Source: Williamsia limnetica
GTDB lineage: Bacteria; Actinomycetota; Actinomycetes; Mycobacteriales; Mycobacteriaceae
Assembly (NCBI RefSeq): GCF_003217475.1
Contig: NZ_QJSP01000029.1
Location: 1-43,061 of the forward strand
Direction of reading: 5' to 3'
DNA length: 43,061 nt
Shown here one piece after another: positions 1,317 through 32,301 of this stretch. The notes below the pieces were generated by a model, which made no database searches, was not told where the DNA came from, and saw nothing but the letters and a program-made list of their open reading frames with translations. The first letter of the stretch is position 1, and every line of letters starts with the position of its first letter. A program made the translations under genes and the position numbers.

Positions 1317-1776
1317 GCGGTAGGTCTGGGTCGCCGTGCCATAGGACAGAAGGGTGGACCATCGACGCCGTCTTTCGCGCCCTCAAACGCGCCGTCGCCC
1401 GGCAAACCCTTCATGCCCCTGACCGGCGAGTGCGCCGTGCGGCCGACGCGACGCGCGAAGAATCTCACCCTGACCGCTGCCGCGCGGCATCTGGGCGGCT
1501 GACCATCACGCGTCGGCGAACTCGAACTCGGTTAGCGCCCAACGACGAATCCGCCCATCACTATCGCGAATGGCTAAACGCCGCCGCACACCCAAAGGGA
1601 GCATCAGGCCCCTGTCGGGCCGAAACGCGGAGTTTGAAAGGCTCCCTGCGGGCGGTTGGTTGCAGATCGCGGTGCGGGTCATCTCACTGCACTGCGGAGG
1701 CGAGTGTGAGTGTCTTAGGTCATGTTTGTAACGCCGGGGTGATCCGCCGACGACATTTGGGAGCGATGGTGTACCA
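1317..1776. other. Intergenic DNA beyond the pntB break; no supported gene
   Basis: The 460 bp between the pntB break and the AraC gene hold open frames on both strands, none with recognisable protein features. Translation on the plus strand near 1360-1600 gives Arg-rich stretches with in-frame stops in the neighbouring frame, compatible with a decayed mobile-element relic. I cannot assign a family. The stretch marks a rearrangement junction. Confidence 0.5.
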
Positions 1777-2811
1777 ATGCTGCGTGTTGCGGACGCCGAG
1801 CCGCTTGGAGGTCAGGAACGGTTCTGGGCACTGGACGATTTGCCAGCAGCCGAGCGGTTCGACTACTGGCGAAGCGTGATCTGTGAGGCGTACACACCCC
1901 TGACTCCGCGGCGGCGGTTGACTGCTCCGCCGGCGGGAGTAGCCGCGGGGTTCGCTGATTGGGTGCGCAGTGTGCCCTTGGCTTCCACGCAATTGACGGA
2001 GATCGCATCCCTCGCGCAACAAAATATCCATGGTGCCCGCGAGGTCAGCCGCACGTCGGTGGACGCTGTCTTCGTGAATCTGATGCTTGAGGGTTCCTGC
2101 GTCGGAAGCCAGGACGGTCGGGACTGCGTCATCGGCCGGGGCGAGTTCGCGCTGTTCGACGCCACTCGACCCTTCACGCTCGACTACCCGGAGAGCTGGC
2201 GGGCGCTGTCCTTTCGTGTGCGTCGAAGCGAACTCGTGCATCTCATCGAACAACCCGACACGTTCACCGCGACAACGCATACAACCCGGGTGCCGGGCGG
2301 CGCCTGCGCGGCCATCACGGCGGCAACCATGACTGCGATCTGGAGCGGCGCGATGAGCTTGGAGCAGTCCGCCGCTGCATCCACCAACACCGCCTTTATG
2401 ACACTGTTGTCGTCGTGCATCGATTCTGCTGGCGTGCTCGCCGGTGCGCCCGATCACGATGCTCAAGCATTGGTTCGAGCGAGCGTCAATCGCTACCTCG
2501 CCGCACATCTGCAACACGGCGACCTATCGGTGGGGGTGGTCGCACGCCGATTCGCGATGTCGCCGCGAAAACTGCACGCCCTGTATGAAGGTCACGATCT
2601 GAGTTTTGCCCAGACCGTGATGCGACTTCGCGTCGAGGCGTGTGCACGAGATCTGGAAAATGGTTCTGGTGCAGTATCTCTGACGTCTGTGGCCTCGAAG
2701 TGGGGGTTTTGCGACCTGTCCCATCTCAATCGAGTGTTCCGGGCACACATGGGTTGTCGGCCCTCCGACTTTCGGGCCAAGGCGCAGGACGCGGCTGCCG
2801 CGGCCTTGTGA
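1777..2811 (+). CDS. AraC-family transcriptional regulator
   Basis: This is a 344-residue protein. Residues about 15-200 form a cupin-like ligand-binding region of the AraC_binding_2 type; FWALDDLPAAERFDYWRSVI near the N-terminus is typical of the group. The last about 100 residues are a double helix-turn-helix: the first HTH is around GVVARRFAMSPRKLHALYE and the second ends in the signature WGFCDLSHLNRVFRAHMGCRPSDFR (given here from the visible translation, around nt 2700-2780). Such proteins usually activate catabolic genes when bound to the substrate or an early intermediate. The broken flavoprotein gene starts 157 bp downstream on the same strand, with a perfect inverted repeat between them, so it is the likely target. 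The start is the ATG at 1777; no strong ribosome-binding site is visible. Confidence 0.88.
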   Translation: MLRVADAEPLGGQERFWALDDLPAAERFDYWRSVICEAYTPLTPRRRLTAPPAGVAAGFADWVRSVPLASTQLTEIASLAQQNIHGAREVSRTSVDAVFVNLMLEGSCVGSQDGRDCVIGRGEFALFDATRPFTLDYPESWRALSFRVRRSELVHLIEQPDTFTATTHTTRVPGGACAAITAATMTAIWSGAMSLEQSAAASTNTAFMTLLSSCIDSAGVLAGAPDHDAQALVRASVNRYLAAHLQHGDLSVGVVARRFAMSPRKLHALYEGHDLSFAQTVMRLRVEACARDLENGSGAVSLTSVASKWGFCDLSHLNRVFRAHMGCRPSDFRAKAQDAAAAAL

Positions 2812-2843
2812 TCTCTGCTACGGAGACGGCCGCAGGCGCCGCG

Positions 2844-2875
2844 ATGTGCAGGTTCGTTCTAGCGGTGCTGCACAT
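2844..2875. promoter_or_regulatory. Inverted repeat upstream of the flavoprotein gene; candidate operator
   Basis: ATGTGCAG (2844-2851) and CTGCACAT (2868-2875) are perfect 8-bp arms separated by 16 bp. They lie between the AraC stop and the flavoprotein start at 2969, about 95 bp upstream of the start codon, where an activator would bind. The link to the neighbouring AraC protein is inference. Confidence 0.45.
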
Positions 2876-2968
2876 TCGTCCAATCCGTGGCGCAGTTCTC
2901 GAAGGTTGACTGAGTGTGGGCAACGGCGCTCACCGGTAAGCACTTCTAGATTTCGGAGTACCACAACT

Positions 2969-4222
2969 ATGACCCTGAGCTTCCAACTCGACGACGACCA
3001 GTTCGCGGTGCGGGCGATGGCACGCGGCATCGCAAACACTGTTCTCACCAAAGTGGCAGCGGCAATCGCGCCCTACGGCCGACCCGAGGACCGGTTCTAC
3101 GCGTTGAAACCAATCTTCCAAGAACTCGTCGATGCTGGGTTACTCAAAGGCCTCATTCCCAACGAGTACGGCGGTGAGTACATCAACAATCTGAACTTCG
3201 CCCTCGCGGCGGAGGAGCTCGCCCGAGTCGACATCAATGTTCCTTCAGCGCTTCTGGGCACAGGCCTGGGACTTCACCCCATCATTCACTATGGGACTCA
3301 GGAACAAAAGCAGCGTTGGCTGCCGATGTTCTGTGATGGGCAACCACGCCTGGCCGCGATCGCCTACACCGAGGTCACCGGCGGCGCCAACTTCGATTCG
3401 CCTGACCCGAAGGTCGGCGTCCAGACATTTGCCCGGCGAGACGGTGACGAGTGGGTGATCAACGGCGCCAAGCACTACACCACCAATGCGTCCGGGTGGG
3501 GCGGGGAGGGTGCTGACCTGATCAGTGTCGTCTGCCGCACTGACCCTGATCTACCTCCCCAGGAGTCGTTAGCAATCATTGTGGTCGAAAGGGCACGCCC
3601 GGTGTCGAGATCACCGGGATGATCGACACCATCGGTCACCTCGCGAGTAACTCACCGCGCGTGGAGTTCACCGACGTTCGAGTGCCGGCCGCAAATATTA
3701 TCGGCACACCAGGTGACGGCATCGAGATCGTGAACCGTGCCTTTTCCTGGACGTGCTCGTCGATCGGCGCCGCATGCGTAGGCCGCATGCGGGCCGCCTT
3801 CGACTACGCCTACGAGTTCGCCATGAACGACAAGCGCTCGGGCCCAGTGCCGGTAATCGAATACCAGAACGTCGGATACATGCTGGCCGACATCAAAACC
3901 CGCATCGAGGCCGTGCGCTACTTGGCGTGGAAGGCCGCTGACCACTTCGACAAGACAGGCGGCAAAGACCGCGAACTCGCCAACGCCACAAAAATTTTCG
4001 CGTCCGAAACATCAGTGCAAGTCGTCTACGACGCGATGAGGCTAGTCGGTGTGGACGCCTACTCGAACCTGACACCCATCGCCGGCATCATGCAAGACGT
4101 CCTGTGCTTCCGTCTACGACGGCGGAAACATGGGCGTCCGGCGCCGCAACCTGCACACCATCTTGAAGTCCGACGGCTACGACTCCCTCGCACCCTCAGA
4201 AAACCGGCTGTCGGTGCCCTAG
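2969..4222 (+). pseudogene. Acyl-CoA dehydrogenase superfamily flavoprotein, nitroalkane-oxidase-like, two frameshifts
   Basis: The sequence starts at ATG 2969 (MTLSFQLDDDQFAVRAMARG) and reads as a normal ACAD N-domain to about 3588. It then shifts frame at GAAAGGG (3587-3593). The second frame resumes with GVEITGMIDTIGH through the C-terminal helices until about 4110 (TTCCGTC), where a second shift is needed. The third frame gives VYDGGNMGVRRRNLHTIL and ends at TAG 4220-4222. Each break is repaired by one extra base in a short homopolymer (A near 3590, C near 4111), giving a protein of about 417 residues. At the usual catalytic Glu position the repaired protein has Asp in DGGN (GAC 4118-4120), followed by GVRRR, as in fungal nitroalkane oxidase. 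The gene could be a true pseudogene or carry sequencing errors. It is likely controlled by the upstream AraC protein. Confidence 0.8.
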
Positions 4223-23532: not shown

Positions 23533-25449
23533 ATGGAAATAGGTAGCGGCAAACACGCAGGCGCGGAGGGCTCGCCGGGACACGAGCCAGCGGCTTCAAC
23601 GGATTGGATGTCCCTGTTACTAAACGAGGCGCCCTCGCCTGATCTGGTGAGTCACAAAGACCGGTTAGTCAGAGCAGGGGGCGTTCCCGCAGCCGTGGCG
23701 GAACGTCAGTTCGAAGATGCGCTGACGATCCGCGAGCGACTCGATCAGCGGCGTCGACGCGCGGACGAACTCACAGCGCTCAACGCAATCGCCGGTCAGC
23801 TCGCATCGGTGACCGATATTGATCTGTTACTGACGCAGATCGTAGAGCATGCGAAGGATCTGCTGCGCGTCGATCTGGCATATCTCAGCCTTATACACGC
23901 TGAGCAGGTAACCATCGTCGTCGCAGCCGGCCAGATCTCGTCGTACCTGACTAAGTTGACGATGCCAATCAAGGAAGGCTTTTCGTCCGCTGTCGTGGCA
24001 AATGCGGCACCTCTCTGGACTAGCGACTATCGAAGAGATGAGCGTTTCCAACACCACGAGCGCGCTGATGCGGCCGCTCGACTAGAGGACATCCGCGGGC
24101 TCTTAGGAGTGCCAATGCTGTCTCAAGGCAAGATAGTAGGGGTATTGTTCGCTGCCAAAAGGCAAGAGCGTCAATTTGCAACCGACGAGATAGAATTGCT
24201 AACAGCACTAGCCGCGCATGCGGCGGTCGCCCTTGTGAACTCACGAGTTTTGGCCGAACAAAAAACTTCCGCAGAGCAGTTGCAGGCTGCGAATGCCCGT
24301 CTTGAATCGACCATCCGCTGGAATAACGCATTAACAGCATTAGTTCTCCGCGGTGGCGATGTCAGCGACTTACTATCTGAAGTGTCACGGGAAGCGGGCT
24401 ATCCGGCAATTTTTGTTCGATCTGCGTCTGACCTTCCCGACGAGTTACGCAACGACACTGAGGTTTCAAATAGGATCCTGGCGGTCAACCTCGATTCAGA
24501 CTCCTACGCTGAAATAGTTACCGAAGCCCGCTCCATCTTGGCAGTGCCGGTCGTTGCCTCTGGTGACTGGCTTGGTGTTCTGTTCCTGGATCGGCCAAGA
24601 GATGCAACAGTCACAGCAGTAGACCAGTTGATGGTTCTAGAACGGGCTGCGCTATCCGTGGCGTTGCTTCTACTGGGGCAACACGTCGCGTCCGAAGCGG
24701 CACGGAAGACGAGAGACGGCCTTCTCCTTGATCTTCTCACCCGTCAAGTCGACGATCATCGAGAGATCAATACGCAGGTCAGATTGGCGGGCTTGAATCC
24801 AGCGCTGACTTATTCGGTCGCAGTAATTTTGCCCGTCGGAGACAGGGCTGCGGTGCGACGAAGCCTTGAAGCGCTTGTTCTTCAAAGCCACAGCGCGATA
24901 TGCGACTACGGACAGCGATTCGTACTTGTAGTGCCCCGCGTTGACCCCGAAGAATTAGCGGTCACACTCTCAACCTCAACGATTGCAGCCGCGGCGACTA
25001 CCGGGATCGCCGGGCAGACCAAGGACGTATCAGAACTCACTAAGTACTTCAACGAGGCCAGCCAGACGGTTGACGTGATGCTCACCCTCGGCGCACACGG
25101 CCAGACGGCGACCGCCGAACGCCTTGGCCTCTATCGAATTCTTTTAAGCCACGCTGGAACTCGTGAAGTGAGTCGACTTTTCGAAATTTACCTGGGGCCG
25201 GTCAAGACAGAAGAAGATCGCTCTGGGGTGCCATTGCTTGAAACTCTGGACTGCTTTTTACGCAACAACCAGCGTCATGCAGTAACTGCCGGTGAGCTGA
25301 ATATTCATTCGAACACCTTGTATCAGAGGTTGGAGAAACTTACTAAGGTCCTCGGCACGCGGTGGAAGCACCCTGACCACGCCCTCGATCTGCAACTTGT
25401 TCTTCGCTTGGAGAAAAGCGCCAAGAAGCTTGGCGCGCGAACGAAGTAG
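23533..25449 (+). CDS. GAF-domain, PucR/CdaR-type transcriptional regulator
   Basis: A 638-residue cytoplasmic regulator. Residues about 70-250 form a GAF sensor domain (ELTALNAIAGQLASVTDIDL, then MLSQGKIVGVLFAAKRQE, then LTALAAHAAVALVNSRVLAE). The middle is a second, weakly recognisable sensory stretch (about 260-385). The last 60 residues are the PucR-type helix-turn-helix with HSNTLYQRLEKLTKVLGTRW. Proteins of this build activate adjacent degradative operons, such as acetoin or alcohol dehydrogenase genes. GGAGG sits about 7 bp before ATG 23533. It is divergent from the 2-oxoacid dehydrogenase genes and is the obvious candidate for their control. The mobile island begins 35 bp after its stop codon. 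Confidence 0.87.
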   Translation: MEIGSGKHAGAEGSPGHEPAASTDWMSLLLNEAPSPDLVSHKDRLVRAGGVPAAVAERQFEDALTIRERLDQRRRRADELTALNAIAGQLASVTDIDLLLTQIVEHAKDLLRVDLAYLSLIHAEQVTIVVAAGQISSYLTKLTMPIKEGFSSAVVANAAPLWTSDYRRDERFQHHERADAAARLEDIRGLLGVPMLSQGKIVGVLFAAKRQERQFATDEIELLTALAAHAAVALVNSRVLAEQKTSAEQLQAANARLESTIRWNNALTALVLRGGDVSDLLSEVSREAGYPAIFVRSASDLPDELRNDTEVSNRILAVNLDSDSYAEIVTEARSILAVPVVASGDWLGVLFLDRPRDATVTAVDQLMVLERAALSVALLLLGQHVASEAARKTRDGLLLDLLTRQVDDHREINTQVRLAGLNPALTYSVAVILPVGDRAAVRRSLEALVLQSHSAICDYGQRFVLVVPRVDPEELAVTLSTSTIAAAATTGIAGQTKDVSELTKYFNEASQTVDVMLTLGAHGQTATAERLGLYRILLSHAGTREVSRLFEIYLGPVKTEEDRSGVPLLETLDCFLRNNQRHAVTAGELNIHSNTLYQRLEKLTKVLGTRWKHPDHALDLQLVLRLEKSAKKLGARTK

Positions 25450-25496
25450 CAGCTGTCGGCCCTTTAAATCCTACGTAACAAGGATGAACCACCCCG

Positions 25497-25504
25497 GGTT
25501 TGAT
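25497..25504. repeat. 8-bp target-site duplication, left copy (GGTTTGAT)
   Basis: Identical to 29567-29574 on the far side of the composite. It is at the same time part of the IS3 terminal repeat, which proves the order of insertion. Confidence 0.85.
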
Positions 25505-25668
25505 GGCTCTTCCCAAATGAGGGTGTAGGTCGGCCGGGCGCGTCGGTCCGCAGATAGACGTCGAGGTCTCCCGACGACGGAGGTTCCTACGCCATCCATC
25601 CGAAAGACCTCGACGTGTCCGACGCTACCCGCGGGCCGGCTTCGGCCGCCCTGACCTGACCGCCTTCG
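25505..25668 (+). repeat. Truncated ISL3 left-end copy, direct repeat of 28138-28303
   Basis: These 164 bp match 28138-28303 almost base for base, including the ATCCATCCGAAAGACCTCGA stretch and the transposase GTG start region. Identity stops after ACCGCCTTCG in both. The rest of the transposase is missing here. Two direct copies like this could recombine and delete the cargo. Confidence 0.88.
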
Positions 25669-25897
25669 TGTGTCATCCCAATCGACCCTGATCGGGTCTG
25701 CTGACCCCCTCGACGAGAACGCAGCGACATCACAGCCACCCAACCCCGACCGTCCGGGAAGACGGGGCACGTCACATGGCCTGTGCTGCGGGCGTGTCGA
25801 GTGGGTCGTCCAGGGGCGACGCAGGAGCGTCGACGCGACGTGCTGAGAGGTGGTTCCAACCGAGCGCTAGGACACCGGCTACAGGCATGGCGATAGG

Positions 25898-26839
25898 TCA
25901 GGAACGGCGTCGCTCCCTGCGCAGGAGGGAGCGCAGAGTCTCGGCGTTCGCGTAGCCGACCCGTAGCGCGATCTCGGCGGAGGTGAGGTCCGTGGTTGCT
26001 GAGAGGTGCCGAGCTCGTTCGATGCGAAGCCGTTGGACGAAGCCGAGCGGAGTGAGGTTGAGCGCCGCACGGACTCGTCGTTCGAGGGTGCGCCGGCTGG
26101 TGGCGAGCGACTGCGCGACGAAGGCGACGTTGAACGGTTCGTCCAGGCGGGCGCGCACGAAGCGTTCGAACTCGACGACGATCGGGTCCTCGTGCCGGAG
26201 ATGTTCGTAGGCGACGAAGGCCGCCTGCGACGGACGCTCGTCGATGATGAGGAGCTTGGCGACATGTTGGGCCAGGTCGGGGCTGATCGATCGCACGAGT
26301 GAGAGCGCGAGGTCGATGTGGGCGAACGCGGCGCCGGCGGTGACGAGGTTCCCGTCGACCACGACCATGGTGTCGAGATCGAGGGCGACGGTCGGATAGC
26401 GCTTCAGGAACTCCGGCCCCAGGAACCAGCTGGTCGTCGCCCGCCGATGATGCATCCGTCCGGTCTCGGCGACGGCGAACACGCCGGTGCACGCCGCGGC
26501 GATCCGGGTGGTCGCGTCGTCGAGGCGCCCGAGTGAGGCGATGACCGAACGTGCATCTCGGCTCTGGAGGGCGTCGTGGGTCGCGGCGGCCGTGAGGGTT
26601 CCAAGCGCAGGGACGACGACCACGTCGAACTCTCCGGACTCCGACAGCGGGTGGTCCACCGACAGGGTCATCGATGCCGTCGTGGTCACTCGCCGTTTCG
26701 GTCCGAGGATGGCGAGTTCGATCGGGTCGATCCGCGGGTCGACATCGCCGCGGGCTCCGTCGGCCACCCGCACGATGTCGATGACCGACGCGACCGCCGA
26801 ACCGAAGCAGCCGTCGATCGCGATCAGTCCGATACGCAT
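25898..26839 (-). CDS. GlxA-type transcriptional regulator (DJ-1/PfpI domain plus AraC HTH)
   Basis: A 313-residue protein. The N-terminal DJ-1/PfpI-like amidotransferase domain spans residues 1-180, starting MRIGLIAIDGCFGSAVASVID, with a Cys in AAACTGVFAVAE at the usual nucleophile-elbow position. The C-terminal AraC double HTH has VAQSLATSRRTLERRVRAAL and IALRVGYANAETLRSLLRRE. I placed the start at ATG 26839, where the domain begins; a longer frame to 26932 adds 31 residues without features. It is divergent from the ABM-domain gene 108 bp away, which it probably regulates. Its Arg-rich, GC-rich codon use differs from the 2-oxoacid dehydrogenase genes next door, in line with arrival on the composite element. 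Confidence 0.88.
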   Translation of the reverse strand: MRIGLIAIDGCFGSAVASVIDIVRVADGARGDVDPRIDPIELAILGPKRRVTTTASMTLSVDHPLSESGEFDVVVVPALGTLTAAATHDALQSRDARSVIASLGRLDDATTRIAAACTGVFAVAETGRMHHRRATTSWFLGPEFLKRYPTVALDLDTMVVVDGNLVTAGAAFAHIDLALSLVRSISPDLAQHVAKLLIIDERPSQAAFVAYEHLRHEDPIVVEFERFVRARLDEPFNVAFVAQSLATSRRTLERRVRAALNLTPLGFVQRLRIERARHLSATTDLTSAEIALRVGYANAETLRSLLRRERRRS

Positions 26840-26947
26840 GGCGCGAACAATAGCAATACTGTCGTATACGCCACTCCCCACCGGCCCTCGCTCGTCATAC
26901 GCTGAACTCGCTTCACCAAGGAACCTCGACACCTAGGAGAACCCCTC

Positions 26948-27259
26948 ATGTCCGCACCCGCATCACTTCCGTATGCCTTCGTCGCCAAGATCGTCGCGGC
27001 CGATGGACAGCACGACGCGCTCGCCGATCTGCTCGCCGGCGCTGTCGCACTCGCCAACGAAGAAGTAGGAACGATTGTCTGGTTCGCGGTCAGGACCCAC
27101 GCCGACACCTTCTGGATCTTCGATGCATTCCCCGACGAGGCCACTCGCGACGCCCACGCCAACGGCGCCATCGTCGCAGCCCTGATGGCCAACCAGCACC
27201 TCCTCGGCGCAGCACCCGAGATCCTGGCGGCCGACGTCCTCGCGTCCAAGCTCCCGTAG
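26948..27259 (+). CDS. Small ABM-domain monooxygenase (quinol monooxygenase type)
   Basis: A 103-residue single-domain protein of the antibiotic-biosynthesis-monooxygenase (dimeric alpha-beta barrel) fold. Features are VAKIVAADGQHDALADLLAG, then EVGTIVWFAVRTHADTFWIF, and the FDAFPDEATRDAHANGAIVA segment, which carries the conserved core. Such proteins (YgiN-like) oxidise quinols or act in aldehyde and peroxide stress, and often sit beside GlxA-type regulators. CTAGGAGAACCCCT lies just before ATG 26948, a good ribosome-binding site. It is the only enzyme cargo of the composite unit. Confidence 0.82.
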   Translation: MSAPASLPYAFVAKIVAADGQHDALADLLAGAVALANEEVGTIVWFAVRTHADTFWIFDAFPDEATRDAHANGAIVAALMANQHLLGAAPEILAADVLASKLP

Positions 27260-28137
27260 TCCGCCAACGCACGAGACGATCGCGCCCCGCCGAGCCGTCG
27301 GACCCGACCGCCTCGACACCCGCACCACGTTGACGATCCCCGACGGGCCGATCACGAGGAGGCCAGGCAACACCAGGCGCAAGCCTGGAGCGGCACTGTT
27401 TCACCGGTGGTCATCGAGAGAGCCAGCGCGGTTCCATGGCAGCGCAACTGTGTCAACTTGCCCTCCGTCCCGCGAGGCGCCGTGGGCGGGTCGTGGTTGC
27501 GATCCGTTGCCGTGACGGGAGACGCGTTGCGCGTCGCAGCGATGACGGGTCGTTGGCGTTCCGGGGCGTTGCGTTCGTGCGCGCCGCGTGCGGCATGGAG
27601 CATCTCGCTGCGCACACAACGATCGCTGCGCCGACGCACCGTTGACACCTCGCACGTCCAGGTCGCGACACAACGCCACGCTGCGTTGCCGAGCGGAGCG
27701 AGGCCTATCGGCACACGGACAGGTGCCGGCCGCGAGCGCTCAGCAGGCGAGGGGTCCGTCGCAGAGGAGAGCGACGTCGGTGTCGGGCAGAGCCGTGAGG
27801 CCAGCGCATCGCGCGACCACCAGAACCGAACCGCCCCTGCCCTGCGTTTGCGCAGGTCAGGGGCTGTTCGCCGGAGCCGCCTGTCGGAATCGAACCGACG
27901 ACCTAATCACGTCGGCTTTGCGTCTATCGCTTGATTGCGCCCACTGGGCGAACGAGCCGCTGACCTGCGCAAACGCCGAGCGTGGGGGACGCCGCCATCC
28001 GGTGGTGACCGACGACGACCGACCAGTACCGACCGTTTCACCGGAGCTTGCGGCGGCGTCGAAGCCGAGCAAGCTCCATTCTTTTAGCTCACCGCGCCCT
28101 CCTCCTCGCCGGTCCCGTCGTCGTCGAAGACGTTTCA
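27260..28137. other. Non-coding DNA inside the composite unit
   Basis: Nearly 880 bp without a supportable gene. Open frames are present in several phases because GC is high, but none shows a domain, a ribosome-binding site or plausible residues. The one clear structure is the inverted repeat at 27844-27976. Repeated short words (CGTTGCG, GCGATG, CGTTGC) are frequent around 27500-27620. Confidence 0.6.
27844..27976. repeat. 133-bp inverted repeat with a tRNA T-arm-like hairpin in the centre
   Basis: The left arm 27844-27872 and right arm 27947-27976 pair over about 28 of 30 positions, beginning with 17 perfect bases (GCGTTTGCGCAGGTCAG). The 74-nt centre, read on the minus strand, has a T-arm-like hairpin GTCGG-TTCGATT-CCGAC preceded by AGGTC, exactly as in tRNAs. 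It also has a possible AATCA/TGATT stem upstream of that. No matching acceptor stem or normal anticodon arm is present. It could be a tRNA relic, a structured RNA, or DNA that forms a cruciform. I do not recognise the family. Confidence 0.7.
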
Positions 28138-29566
28138 GGGGTCTTCCCAGATGCCGGTGTAGGTCGGCCGGGCGCGTCGGTCCGCAGATAGACGTCGAGG
28201 TCTCCTGACGACGGAGGTTCCTACGCCATCCATCCGAAAGACCTCGACGTGTCCGACGCTACCCCGCCGGCCGGCTTCGGCCGCCCTGACCTGACCGCCT
28301 TCGCTCGACTCGACGGCCTCGGTCTGAGCGTGACCGGGCAACGACTTGAACCGGATCGTGCGGTCCTCGCGTGCCGCGTGGTGGAACCAGATCAGTGGTG
28401 CCGACGGTGCGGCAGCGAAGGCGCTGCTCGTGACACCGTGATCCGGCGGTTGGCCCACGAGCCGCTGGGCTGGCGACCGACCGTGCTGGAAGTTGTAGTG
28501 CGCCGCTACCGCTGTGCCGACTGCGGACACGTGTGGCGCCAAGACACCAGCGCCGCGGCGGAGCAACGCGCGGAGCTCTCGCGCACCGGGCTGCGGTGGG
28601 CGCTGGAAGGGATCGTGGTCGCACACCTCACCGTCGCCCGTGTCGCCGAGGGACTCGGGGTCGCGTAGGACACCGCCAACAACGCGGTCCTGGCCGAAGG
28701 CAAGCGGCTGCTGATCAACGACCCCACGCGGTTCGAGGGCGTGAAGGTCATTGGCGTCGATGAGCACGTCTGGCGCCACACCAGGCGTGGCGACAAGTAC
28801 ATCACCGTGATCATCGACCTCACCCCGGTCCGCGATGGCGCCGGCCCAGCAAGGCTGCTGGACATGGTCGAAGGCGGCGTTCAAGACCTGGCTCGCCGAC
28901 CGCGACGACGCCTTCCGTGACGCGGTCGAGGTGGTCGCGATGGACGGCTTCACCGGGTTCAAGACCGCCGCTGCAGAGGAGATCCCGGACGCGGTCACGG
29001 TGATGGATCCCTTCCACGTCGTGCGCCTGGCCGGTGACGCCCTCGACAGGTGCCGGCGCCGGGTCCAACTCGCGATCCACGGGCACCGTGGGTTCAGGGA
29101 CGACCCGCTCTACAAGTCACGGCGCACGCTGCACACCGGCGCGGACCTGCTCACCGACAAGCAGAGCGACAGGCTACGCGCGCTGTTCGTTGATGACGCT
29201 CACGTCGAGGTCGAGGCGACCTGGGGTGTCTACCAGCGCATGATCGCCGCCTATCGCCACGAGGACCGGCAACGTGGCCGCGAGCTCATGGAGAAGCTGA
29301 TCACCGACCTCAGCGCCGGCGTCCCCAAGGTGCTCACCGAGCTCACCACCCTGGGCCGGACCCTGAAGAAGCGAGCCGCCGACGTGCTCGCCTACTTCGA
29401 ACGACCCGGCACCGGCAACGGGCCGACCGAGGCGCTCAACGGACGGCTCGAACACCTGCGCGGCTCCGCACTCGGGTTCCGCAACCTGACCAACTACATC
29501 GCCCAAAGCCTGCTCGAGACCGGCGGCTTCAGACCCCAACTCCTACACCCCCGATTGGGATGAGCC
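28138..29566 (+). mobile_element. ISL3-family insertion sequence, nearly full length
   Basis: Left end GGGTCTTCCCAGATGCCGG (28138) and right end at 29566 are imperfect inverted repeats; the transposase fills the element. Its left terminus has drifted at the third base (GGG instead of GGC), while the outer copy at 25505 matches the right end better. So the functional pair of ends is likely 25505 with 29566. Confidence 0.82.
28249..29563 (+). pseudogene. ISL3-family transposase, broken by a stop and a frameshift
   Basis: From GTG 28249 it reads as an ISL3 transposase with the N-terminal zinc-finger-like Cys pairs (WCRRCGSE and YRCADCGHVW). The first break is TAG at 28666-28668 in GLGVA*DTANN, where TGG (Trp) is expected. 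The frame continues with VKVIGVDEHVWRH, carrying the first catalytic Asp. It shifts near 28872 (GTCGAAGGCGGCG); the downstream phase fits loss of about 11 bp between short AAGGC repeats. The third frame runs from KAAFKTWLADRDDAF with VVAMDGFTGF, MDPFHVVRL (Asp) and NGPTEALNGRLEHLRG (Glu) to the TGA at 29563. It cannot give active transposase from one frame. Confidence 0.87.
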
Positions 29567-29574
29567 GGTTTGAT
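29567..29574. repeat. 8-bp target-site duplication, right copy (GGTTTGAT)
   Basis: Identical to 25497-25504. It directly follows the ISL3 right end and is continued by GCACACC, the rest of the IS3 terminal repeat. Confidence 0.85.
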
Positions 29575-29584
29575 GCACACCTGG

Positions 29585-29909
29585 TTACTGGTGCGCCTCC
29601 ACGAGCGTGGGGACGTGTTGAGTGTAGTAGTTCTGTTCGGCCTCGACCGGTGGGATCCGGCCCAGGCGGTGCATGAGCCTGCTGGTGTTGTACCAGTGGA
29701 CCCATCTCGATGTCAGGTATTCCACATCACCGAGCCGGGTCAGCGGGCCGATACGAAATGGCGAATCCTCCCGAACCGCTTCGGTTTTGTAGAGCCCGAT
29801 GGTCGTTTCGGCAAGAGCATTGTCATATGCATCGCCCACTGTGCCGATCGAGGACGTCAGGCCCGAAAGCCCCAACGTCTCCCCACATCGCACCGACGTG
29901 TACAGGGCG
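29585..29909 (-). pseudogene. IS3-family orfB, C-terminal part (severed by the IS30 insertion)
   Basis: Reads YTSVRCGETLGLSGLTSSIG, then GDAYDNALAETTIGLYKTE with the catalytic Glu, and the usual IS3 tail around LGRIPPVEAEQNYY. It continues directly from the HHSDAGSQ end of the other part at about 31358. Residues before Tyr-Thr-Ser-Val belong to the IS30 end. Confidence 0.87.
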
Positions 29910-31357
29910 GATTCAATCTGTCTTCGCAACACCATGCTGTGATTGCGAGTGTAGTTGATCGGCAAACACTTCCGCTGGCGTTCTCCACTTCAATGCCTTT
30001 CGCGGTCGGTTGTTGAGCGCATCTGCCACCGCTTCTAGTTCTCGTCGGTCATATCGCGCGAGGTCTGTTCCATTCGGAAAGTATTGGCGCAGTAGACCAT
30101 TGGTGTTCTCGTTTGTGCCGCGTTGCCACGGGCTGTACGGATCGCAGAAGTAGACGCTGATGCCGGTCGCGGCAGTCAGCTCGGCGTGCCGCGCCAGTTC
30201 CTTCCCTCTGTCCCAGGTCACTGACCTGCGCAGATGCTCAGGAAACGGCGTCAGCGCTGCAGCAAGGGCATCGCGCACCGACTCTAACCCGTACCCAGAT
30301 AATGCTGGCCCGTTCTTCACCGGTGGCGCCGCCCCGTATCCGTCCTTGCGTGGCAGATGCAGCAAGGTGGTGAAGCGACTCGTGCGCTCAACCAGTGTGC
30401 CGATGGCGGACCGACCAAGCCCGATGATGAGGTCGCCTTCCCAGTGGCCTGGATCTTTCCGTTTGTCGACTTCTGCAGGGCGGGCGCCGATGGTCACGTC
30501 GTCGGTGATGAACCCGGTGCTCAACTTCTTGGCCCGAGCACGGGGCTTACGTAACGCGCGTCCGGTTCGCAGGCACGCCACCAATTCCCGCGTTAACCCG
30601 CCGCGGCCTTCAACGTAGAGCGATTGATAAATCGCCTCGTGCGAGATCCGCATCGACGGGTCATCGGGGAACTCCAAGGGCAACCGGTGCGCGATCTGTT
30701 CTGGGCTCCACGCGGTCGCCCACCGGCGGTCCGCTCGCCGTGGTTTGTTCCGCCCTTTCCACGACGCGGACGGTCCCACAACATTCCCGTCACCATCGCG
30801 TATCACCCCGGAAAGTCTGTCCTGCACAAACTCTTGAAGCTTTGGATGCTCAGCGAGCTTCGCCGGCTTCGGTCGCCGAGCAGCAAGATCGGCTTTCCAC
30901 TGCGCGGTCGATGCCCGATACTCCAGCTTCCCGTTTCGGGTGGCGGCGTTTCGCCTCAACTCCCTCGAGATCGTTGACGGTGATCGCCCAATCCGGCCGG
31001 CCATCGTGCGAATACTCAACCCCTCCGCGCGCATCACCGCGATGTCTTCCCGCTCGGCGAAGGACAGATAACGCCCCGAAGTCGGGGCCAGATCGATTGG
31101 TGGCATACCGCCAGCGTGACGGAACCAGCGCGAGCCCACCGGCCCCGACACGCCGCACGATACCGCTGCATCCTCGCTCGTAAGGCCCTCGGCGATCTTT
31201 CCCCAGAACGCACGCTCAAGATCTCGTCGAACCGGCGGCCGACCCGGAGACCGCATCACCGCCCGCCCCGTCAATGCCGCTGCCCATCCCGGTGGTCGTC
31301 CCATTCCACACCTCTCTCGTCGAGGTGTTGCGTCCACCGGTTGAACCCGGTCTGCGA
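29910..31357 (-). mobile_element. IS30-family insertion sequence inside IS3 orfB
   Basis: About 1.45 kb. The left end (29910, GGCGGATTCAATCTGTC) and right end (opposite strand from 31357, ACCGGGTTCAACCGGTGG) are imperfect inverted repeats sharing a TTCAA core and a CGCAACACC inner part. The flanking IS3 reading frame joins cleanly from Gln to Tyr when it is removed. Junctions are good to within 2-3 bp; a 2-3 bp target duplication cannot be resolved. Confidence 0.82.
29913..31304 (-). CDS. IS30-family transposase, intact
   Basis: A 463-residue DDE transposase. An N-terminal HTH region has YLSFAEREDIAVMRAEGLSI and MAGRIGRSPSTISRELRRN, typical of IS30. The catalytic residues are Asp in HWEGDLIIGLG, Asp in VTWDRGKELARH and Glu in NENTNGLLRQYFPNGTDL. 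It ends VFADQLHSQSQHG, within the left terminal repeat region. I chose ATG 31304 (MGRPPGWAAALTG); ATG-type starts up to 31337 add 11 residues reaching into the terminus. No frameshift or stop is seen, so it is the only complete transposase in the island and the element may still move. Confidence 0.9.
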   Translation of the reverse strand: MGRPPGWAAALTGRAVMRSPGRPPVRRDLERAFWGKIAEGLTSEDAAVSCGVSGPVGSRWFRHAGGMPPIDLAPTSGRYLSFAEREDIAVMRAEGLSIRTMAGRIGRSPSTISRELRRNAATRNGKLEYRASTAQWKADLAARRPKPAKLAEHPKLQEFVQDRLSGVIRDGDGNVVGPSASWKGRNKPRRADRRWATAWSPEQIAHRLPLEFPDDPSMRISHEAIYQSLYVEGRGGLTRELVACLRTGRALRKPRARAKKLSTGFITDDVTIGARPAEVDKRKDPGHWEGDLIIGLGRSAIGTLVERTSRFTTLLHLPRKDGYGAAPPVKNGPALSGYGLESVRDALAAALTPFPEHLRRSVTWDRGKELARHAELTAATGISVYFCDPYSPWQRGTNENTNGLLRQYFPNGTDLARYDRRELEAVADALNNRPRKALKWRTPAEVFADQLHSQSQHGVAKTD

Positions 31358-31990
31358 ACCGGCATCGGAGTGATGAATAGTGTTGCCCAAGAACGGTTTG
31401 CCTTCAAATCTGCGGAGCTCTGCAGCGTGGCGAACCGCGGTGCGAACGAACTTGTCGGTCTTGGTAGATGAGCATTCCCAGCCCACGATTCGGCCAGCGT
31501 AGGCATCGATAGCGAACGCGGTGTACATGTGCGACCCACCGGCCATCGGCACGTACGTGAAGTCCGCGACGATCAACTGGTTCGGTGCTGGGACCTTGAA
31601 CTGCCGATCAACGAGGTCCGGTGCCCGCTCATCGGAGGGGTTGGCGATGGTTGTCCGTACCCGTTTGCGGCGAGTGACTCCCTGCCAGCCGCTGCGCATC
31701 AGCCGTTCCACCGTGCACCTGGCCACCGGTATGCCTTGTCGCTGCAGGTAGGCCCACATCTTCACGGCCCCGTACAGCGATTCTGGTGGCCGTCTGCCCT
31801 CGGCGTCGGCTTCGTAGTAGCCGACCATGATTTCGGTGATCGTGGTGTCCCATAGGGCCCGTGTGGACAGCGGTCGCGCCGCCCAGGCGTAGAACGTTCT
31901 CGGGGAGATCTTCGCGCCGTGTGCAGTCAGCACGCGGCAGATCTGAGCGACCCCGAACCGAGCACGATGCTCGGCAATGAACGCGCACAC
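31358..31990 (-). pseudogene. IS3-family orfB, N-terminal part (severed by the IS30 insertion)
   Basis: Starts at GTG 31990, one base overlapping the orfA stop (TAGTG). It carries the HTH_21-like N-terminus (MCAFIAEHRARFGVAQICRV), the first catalytic Asp in LIVADFTYVPMAGG and the second in NTIHHSDAGSQ. After this the sequence changes to IS30-derived codons and stops near 31271. The catalytic Glu is in the severed part at 29585-29909. Confidence 0.88.
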
Positions 31991-32301
31991 TATTGCTGTC
32001 GCGGGTCGCTCTCCCGCGCGAAGAAAGTCGTTGCCGCCTTGAGGATTTCGACTGTCTCCTCCAACTCCAGGACTTTACGTTTGAGGACGCGGACCTCAGC
32101 CGCTTCCTCCCGCGTGACCCCAGGCTTGCCGCCCTGATCGACCTCCTGCTGGCGAACCCACTTGCGCAGCGTTTCCGGCGTCAGTTTCAACCGCTTGGCC
32201 GTCGCGGTGATCGCCGCGTACTCGCTCGGATACTCATCACGATGCTCGACCACCAACCGCACAGCCTTCGCCCGGGTCGCCTCGTCGTACTTCTTCGGCA
32301 T
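31990..32301 (-). CDS. IS3-family orfA (HTH protein of the transposase)
   Basis: A 103-residue protein with a transposase_8-type HTH (AAITATAKRLKLTPETLRKW) and a C-terminal leucine-zipper-like helix (VLKRKVLELEETVEILKAA). It is intact. In IS3 elements orfA joins orfB by a -1 ribosomal frameshift; here orfB starts at the orfA stop, so fusion would have to occur earlier, and I see no clear slippery run. With orfB split the protein can at most act as an inhibitor. Confidence 0.88.
   Translation of the reverse strand: MPKKYDEATRAKAVRLVVEHRDEYPSEYAAITATAKRLKLTPETLRKWVRQQEVDQGGKPGVTREEAAEVRVLKRKVLELEETVEILKAATTFFARESDPRQQ

Follow-up and report, generated by a model that had tools for sequence, protein, structure and literature searches.

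Do the two genes for a GlxA-type regulator and an ABM-fold protein in Williamsia limnetica travel together with the ISL3 insertion sequence (IS) that adjoins them? The question is raised by a 43,061-nucleotide stretch of this actinobacterium (contig NZ_QJSP01000029.1, positions 1 to 43,061), here called the window, in which an initial annotation had seen a composite transposon that moved both genes as one unit. Comparison of the window with related copies in other genomes leaves little doubt that the glxA-abm pair is the cargo of an ISL3 transposon resembling a transporter IS and was moved as a unit. By direct reading of the sequence, the unit comprises 4,062 bp (25505-29566), from an outer ISL3 left end through to the right end. 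Its parts and its target duplications are the following.

25497-25504: left target duplication GGTTTGAT, a perfect 8-bp match to the right copy.
25505-25668, plus strand: outer ISL3 left end, a 164-bp remnant of the left part of the IS and the working left terminus of the unit.
25670-25684, minus strand: buried 15-nucleotide right-end tip, inverted, matching by eye at 13 of 15 positions in the window.
25898-26839, minus strand: cargo gene 1, a GlxA-type regulator of 313 amino acids with a DJ-1/PfpI domain and an AraC-type helix-turn-helix.
26856-26867: candidate operator ATAC-N4-GTAT in the glxA/abm intergenic region, picked by eye from a conserved block.
26948-27259, plus strand: cargo gene 2, an ABM-fold protein of 103 amino acids, divergent from glxA.
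27844-27976: inverted repeat of 29-30 bp enclosing a tRNA-like stretch, from computed repeats.
27873-27904, minus strand: a 32-nucleotide exact match to the 3' part of tRNA-Thr(CGT) genes in other actinobacteria.
28139-28303, plus strand: inner ISL3 left end, with the degenerate tip GGGTCTTC instead of GGCTCTTC.
28249-29563, plus strand: ISL3 transposase gene, broken into two open reading frames (ORFs), 28249-28668 and 28835-29563.
29542-29566, plus strand: right terminal inverted repeat.
29567-29574: right target duplication GGTTTGAT, a perfect 8-bp match to the left copy.

The arrangement described by the initial annotation, two directly repeated ISL3 left ends and one right end with GGTTTGAT just outside the outermost ends, is borne out both by reading and by computed repeats. 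The outer left end is a direct repeat of the inner one (133 nucleotides at 95% in register and 41 nucleotides at 98%), with a computed start-to-start distance of 2,634-2,635, and together with the right end it forms a 25-bp inverted repeat that is 84% complementary. The outer left end had also been said to pair better with the right end than the inner does. This holds in the window, where the first 25 positions of the right end are matched at 21 by the outer left end and at 18 by the inner, but not in every copy: the two tie in L002, L015, L028 and L039, and in L018 the inner end is ahead by one position. Membership of the ISL3 family is indicated by a DDE_Tnp_ISL3 domain together with a Zn-ribbon, by 8-bp duplications and by GGCTCTTC-like terminal inverted repeats. 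In the transposase of the window, whose breakage the initial annotation had not remarked on, the Zn-ribbon lies on the first ORF and DDE_Tnp_ISL3 on the second; the matches to PF01610 (E 1.3e-45) and PF14690 (E 1.1e-5) fall on separate ORFs, and NF033550 is matched with E 2.3e-59.

Evidence that the whole unit moves comes from its copies at other sites. A plasmid search with positions 25300-29800 of the window as query returned 26 records (13 with a query coverage of 80% or more), of which 14 were taken; a genome scan with the GlxA protein supplied the best 80 of 192 relatives. With the window, 95 sequences were compared. The counts given here describe a sample chosen by high glxA similarity that may include closely related plasmid and genome loci, and nine further genome stretches were examined besides it. 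Both outer ends are kept in 46 of the 95, the outer left end only in 25, the right end only in 7 and neither in 15, while two consist of the IS alone. In these 46 complete copies the ends are nearly constant, the outer left end starting with GGCTCTTC in 43 and the right end reading GGCTCATCCC in 45.

The duplication test was possible in 45 of the complete copies, L029 running into a contig end. Perfect 8-bp duplications lie outside the outer left and right ends in 34 of these 45, with 33 distinct octamers; the one repeated octamer belongs to L019 and L025, which share an insertion site. The chance of an exact 8-bp match is 1 in 65,536 for random bases. As a control, the octamer outside the inner left end was compared with that following the right end, and the two matched in none of 31 copies, on which ground insertion of the inner IS by itself at the present sites was rejected. 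The 33 target octamers carry A or T at position 4 in 32 cases and at position 5 in 31. Among the nine additional stretches, L191 adds another perfect duplication, CCCAACGC; in L184 the outer end is truncated and no duplication matches, L190 lies at a contig end, and six of the nine lack one end in the sequence covered.

A pre-insertion site was found for one of these copies. The left flank of L002, from Pseudonocardia autotrophica plasmid pPA12743CP, matches P. alni plasmid pPaSha1 over 79% of its length at 96%, and where L002 has the unit between two copies of GGCAATCC, pPaSha1 has the single octamer GGTAATCC. The last 250 bp of the left flank up to the octamer match at 95.6% and 67 bp of the right flank from the octamer match at 94%, both flanks meeting on the same eight bases (3500-3507 of L199, from the P. 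alni plasmid); the right-hand match is short, with no similarity found beyond these 67 bp. No empty site for L056 was present among 196 Nocardioides genomes, where the sole full-identity match was the occupied site with flanks about 4 kb apart; the left flank of L011, sought in other plasmids, matched only itself, and that of the window, sought in 61 genomes, gave besides its own genome one 43-bp match. Tsukamurella tyrosinosolvens NCTC13231 carries base-identical units of 3,713 bp on two plasmids, with the duplications TTCAAGCC and AGTAACGA. In L012 the IS stands alone, as 1,439 bp with its own 8-bp duplication. The G+C content of complete copies is 66-68% in the unit and 54-75% in the 2-kb flanks, and apart from a few shared sites these flanks are unrelated.

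It might still be supposed that the octamers match by chance, or that ordinary chromosomal genes, which never moved together, merely lie between an old IS and a stray left-end fragment. The outer left end is indeed only a 164-bp remnant, and native relatives of the cargo pair occur at about 41-44% identity in other actinobacteria. The 33 distinct perfect duplications and the empty site refute this supposition, chance octamers included, and the identical copies at two sites in one strain and the near-constant G+C content of the unit speak against it as well; we give it next to no weight. The duplications, the inner-end control and the empty site thus uphold the view of the initial annotation that a duplication around all 4,062 bp marks cargo that arrived with the element. 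The check it had proposed, a search for the unit elsewhere with different 8-bp duplications, yielded the distinct octamers described above. Cargo in place without ISL3 ends in close relatives, which it had named as the contrary result, was not seen: the flanks are mostly unrelated, and eight congeneric genomes are without the cargo.

The term composite transposon is another matter. The unit does move as one, as that term implied, but a classical composite has two complete IS copies around its cargo, whereas here one IS is accompanied by a 164-bp left-end remnant. One transposase and unrelated genes lie between a single pair of ends and move together, an arrangement better described by the class name transporter IS, for an IS with passenger genes.

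The inner left end appears to have been lost by degrees. Among the 32 copies that keep its start, it begins with GGCTCTTCCC in 7, GGGTCTTCCC in 5 and GGGTCTTCTC in 20. In 11 further complete copies 26-86 nucleotides of it are lost, and all 11 have perfect duplications; the inner end is therefore dispensable for movement of the unit. A tree of the cargo splits roughly into units with a long spacer, units with a spacer 357 bp shorter and 3.19-kb units without the inner tip, many of its branches being weak because the copies are so alike. Three copies of 2.45 kb (L017, L019 and L025) have lost much of the transposase, and two of these, L019 and L025, both of 2,452 bp, retain perfect duplications. 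In L002 (5401-5408) and L079 the inner left end is preceded by CCTAATCA, a point within the inverted repeat of the spacer, and not by CGTTTCAG; a separate insertion of the IS or a deletion next to it could have produced this shift.

Four cargos, L020, L021, L040 and L132, appear stranded. They end exactly at, or within one base of, the start of the inner left end, and different DNA follows beyond this boundary. Its first 4, 2, 5 and 3 bases, respectively, fit the rest of the duplication expected from the left flank, as judged by eye with no control. This is most simply read as departure of the inner IS by itself once the unit was in place, by an excision that would leave the cargo behind. Three stranded copies fall among the long-spacer units of the cargo tree and one among the short-spacer units, and so mark no single lineage; on whether they arose only where the inner end was intact, the tree is not decisive.

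Several observations weigh against movement as a unit, or against parts of the account built on it. Eleven of the 45 testable copies are without a perfect duplication (L001, L004, L005, L006, L007, L017, L057, L068, L069, L085 and L087). In L069 the flanking octamers differ by a single mismatch, and for L017, L057, L068, L085 and L087 we have no explanation. One or both outer ends are absent from 47 of the 93 cargo copies. With L132 the incomplete copies number 48; only 6 of them break off within 50 bp of where the available sequence stops, so that most must be decayed or rearranged. The duplication remnants of 2 and 5 nucleotides beside stranded cargos are weak, the 5-nucleotide case (L040) being also one of microhomology. 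The glxA frame is intact in all 94 full-length copies, a figure biased by the choice of loci through their glxA match, and claims about the function of the cargo rest on protein families and conservation.

A related question is whether homologous recombination or conjugative plasmids were the main vehicle of the cargo's spread, with ISL3 transposition as a side effect. Several copies lie on large Rhodococcus plasmids, and flanks are mixed in R. qingshengii. The left flank of L007 recurs in L006 and its right flank in L004 and L005, as would follow if units at different sites had undergone exchange. In L001 and L006 the right octamer is identical, and an IS256-type gene lies no more than about 55 bp from the right end. 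The missing duplications of the Rhodococcus plasmids partly fit such exchange or rearrangement in the neighbourhood. The right flanks of L004, L005 and L007 agree from base 2 or 3 onward; only the one or two bases next to the right end differ. In L003 (R. qingshengii TG-1) a large inverted IS piece with a right end (1752-3010) is fused to a truncated outer left end; inverted IS copies thus surround the cargo, and the outer left terminus is absent. Most complete copies, on the other hand, have unrelated flanks and a duplication of their own, and recombination or plasmid transfer as the main route is very improbable. Both routes were likely used, plasmids carrying the unit between cells and transposition moving it within them. 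Nor do the incomplete copies point to a common native context: of the flanks that could be compared (46 left, 43 right), only those of L022/L027, L038/L052, L060/L089 and L063/L064/L093 are shared, with short weak matches in L032/L083 and L043/L044, and with shared flanks nearly absent such a context is not seen.

The preferred account of transposition as a unit leaves room for a variant, not exclusive of it, in which the window copy, with its own transposase already broken, owed its movement to another ISL3 transposase acting in trans. The window transposase is indeed broken, and the 2,452-bp derivatives L019 and L025 carry perfect duplications despite their loss of transposase. The breakage may, however, postdate the insertion, and in the window's own assembly the one match to the unit is the unit itself (40 of 173 first-look candidates scored). 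Intact relatives of the broken gene exist in other copies. We consider mobilisation in trans an unlikely, though by no means negligible, history for the window copy.

The unit is widespread in actinobacteria. Besides the window, perfect duplications occur under 24 genus names, as given in the records: Pseudonocardia, Tsukamurella, Cryobacterium, Mycobacterium, Brevibacterium, Rhodococcus, Rhodococcoides, Kineosporia, Nostocoides, Gordonia, Phycicoccus, Pseudoclavibacter, Serinicoccus, Agrococcus, Arthrobacter, Nocardiopsis, Nocardioides, Nesterenkonia, Ornithinimicrobium, Microbacterium, Brachybacterium, Pseudarthrobacter, Mycetocola and Leucobacter. Host strains came from sources as diverse as soil, oil-contaminated water, sea ice and sputum. 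Neither unit nor cargo is present in the eight other genomes examined from the window's genus, two of which show only 29- and 54-bp matches. Transfer beyond Actinomycetota was considered for L076 and L085, loci titled Vibrio cholerae and Sporosarcina, and not accepted, since a flank G+C content of 57-70%, set against what is usual for Vibrio and Sporosarcina, suggests contaminated assemblies; neither was removed from the tallies, where L085 counts as one of the 45 testable copies and L076 as a copy that retains just the outer left end.

ISL3 elements that carry passenger genes are a known kind, and it is the cargo and the architecture of this one that we did not find described in the literature searched; among open-licence papers none was found on a GlxA-ABM ISL3 unit. 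In the plasmid units, most of the transposases that are intact carry the annotation "ISL3-like element ISPfr2 family", after an ISL3 element of Propionibacterium freudenreichii. Propionibacterium phage PFR2 has IS-like DNA of about 1.44 kb at 98%, and the phage matches, two PFR2 records, hold the IS only, without cargo. Excerpts of PMC2909200 and PMC6579920 make no mention of a GlxA-ABM cargo at ISPfr2. According to similar excerpts, ISPst2a/b (2,985 bp; PMC6305408) is an ISL3 element with an ArsR regulator and a putative permease, and ISPpu12a (3,372 bp; PMC4447125) one with a predicted CzcD. Like the unit, these combine an ISL3 transposase and passenger genes in one element; their cargo differs, and the excerpts describe no duplicated left end, whereas in the unit the inner left end still marks its assembly. 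Table 3 of PMC6305408 includes an ISL3 element with an 8-bp direct repeat, and the ends of ISArsp7 read GGCTCTTC. The ISAar39-ISAar42 region of Brevibacterium aurantiacum has ISL3-type IS around iron uptake genes, a cargo that cheese actinobacteria have in common; unlike the unit, it spans 11.8 kb between two different IS, and its authors write that it could be a composite transposon (PMC6579920). Loss of IS copies that leaves cargo without them is described, in an excerpt of PMC5821093, for the ISApl1-mcr-1 composite Tn6330, which differs in its IS, its copy-out-paste-in transposition, its 2-bp duplications and its two full IS copies.

The cargo genes are better conserved than the transposase that accompanies them. 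The abm frame is intact in all 91 full-length copies, three further copies not being full length, and the transposase in 31 of 48, the window copy not among them. Pooled ratios of nonsynonymous to synonymous substitution (dN/dS) are about 0.20 in each cargo gene, as against 0.29 in the transposases that are intact (400 random pairs each, uncorrected for relatedness). The mean synonymous distance in the cargo, 0.034-0.037, suggests that the family is not of yesterday. GlxA has both domains of its type above cut-off (PF01965, 39.9 bits; PF12833, 53.8 bits), and no NCBIfam equivalog reaches its cut-off with this protein. The ABM protein scores below the Pfam ABM cut-off (15.9 against 23.1 bits) and resembles 2pd1 (NE2512) in sequence (E 6.1e-23) and in fold (E 3e-5); its single-sequence model (mean predicted local distance difference test score, pLDDT, 75) matches 2pd1 and, more weakly, proteins titled ABM.

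The two genes also occur together. In 345 class-sampled genomes, the nine with an ABM protein at 97-100% are exactly the nine with GlxA at 98-100%, and the next best matches are 59% for ABM and 58% for GlxA. Among 21 loci of distant ABM relatives, with up to about 1.5 kb per side, five (L145, L154, L156, L157 and L162) have a divergent glxA relative, at 41-44% where identity is listed, and the divergent pair is therefore likely an old arrangement picked up by the transposon. No close native donor was found; the nearest relatives, at 57-59%, lie in two genomes, and their surroundings suggest no clear function. The candidate operator ATAC-N4-GTAT falls in a conserved block of the glxA-abm intergenic region in 93 aligned copies. 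From family assignments and conservation, GlxA probably senses a small reactive compound and controls abm from this shared region.

The spacer and the left end retain possible traces of the unit's origin. The inverted repeat of the spacer is near full length in 50 of 94 cargo copies. A tRNA gene within it was rejected: ARAGORN calls none, and Rfam gives only a sub-threshold tRNA-Sec match, leaving a 32-nucleotide tRNA-Thr-like piece. Where this 32-nucleotide stretch was examined at five places, tRNA-Thr(CGT) was called in three, tRNA-Thr(TGT) in one and no tRNA in one; the tRNA-like inverted repeat may be what is left of an attachment site in the cargo's source DNA. The buried inverted right-end tip matches at 15 of 15 positions in 21 of the 46 complete copies, at 14 in 22, at 13 in two and at 8 in one, compared with at most 9 of 15 among 478 control stretches. 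It is perhaps the scar of a founding self-insertion of the IS; no copy using it as an end was seen.

Two features of the window lie outside the unit. To its right, an IS3-type transposase gene is apparently split (29585-32301; rve_3 at 29585-29965, HTH_21/rve at 31274-31990) around an IS30-like transposase (29916-31337). In the left part of the contig (10188-16528), genes are about 75-78% similar to plasmid genes of Rhodococcus and relatives, under the names dmpG, acetaldehyde dehydrogenase, fumarylacetoacetate hydrolase and pyruvate carboxylase.

These observations can be joined in a model. An ISL3 element adjoins the divergent glxA-abm pair, and beyond the pair lies a 164-bp remnant of another left end of this IS, oriented like the first. 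The transposase, which would pair the outer left end with the right end, moves all that lies between, as the duplications and the empty site show, and duplicates an 8-bp target whose two central positions are almost always A or T. Use of the inner left end would instead remove the IS alone and leave immobile cargo, as in the four stranded copies. In lineages presumably later, point changes or deletions would have destroyed the inner left end, after which cargo and transposase could travel only together. The window copy would have arrived whole, its transposase decaying afterwards, and the cargo would have been kept by selection on its hosts.

What the unit does for its hosts can be put forward only tentatively, and the stress or quinol-oxidation role that the initial annotation gave the cassette is likewise a conjecture. 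It may be an unrecognised mobile stress or resistance determinant of Actinomycetota, in which a sensor-regulator and an ABM-fold enzyme that would remove, or confer tolerance of, a common reactive compound were packaged by an ISL3 element turned from a loose composite into a coherent transposon by loss of its inner end, in at least two dozen genera. Because the stages of assembly are still visible, with the inner end intact, mutated or deleted, the IS lost or the transposase lost, the change from a loose IS-cargo arrangement to a coherent transposon can be tested by comparing natural variants. An intact cargo beside a decaying transposase suggests that hosts benefit from the gene pair, and the substrate of the cargo would reveal a pressure common to actinobacteria of very different habitats.

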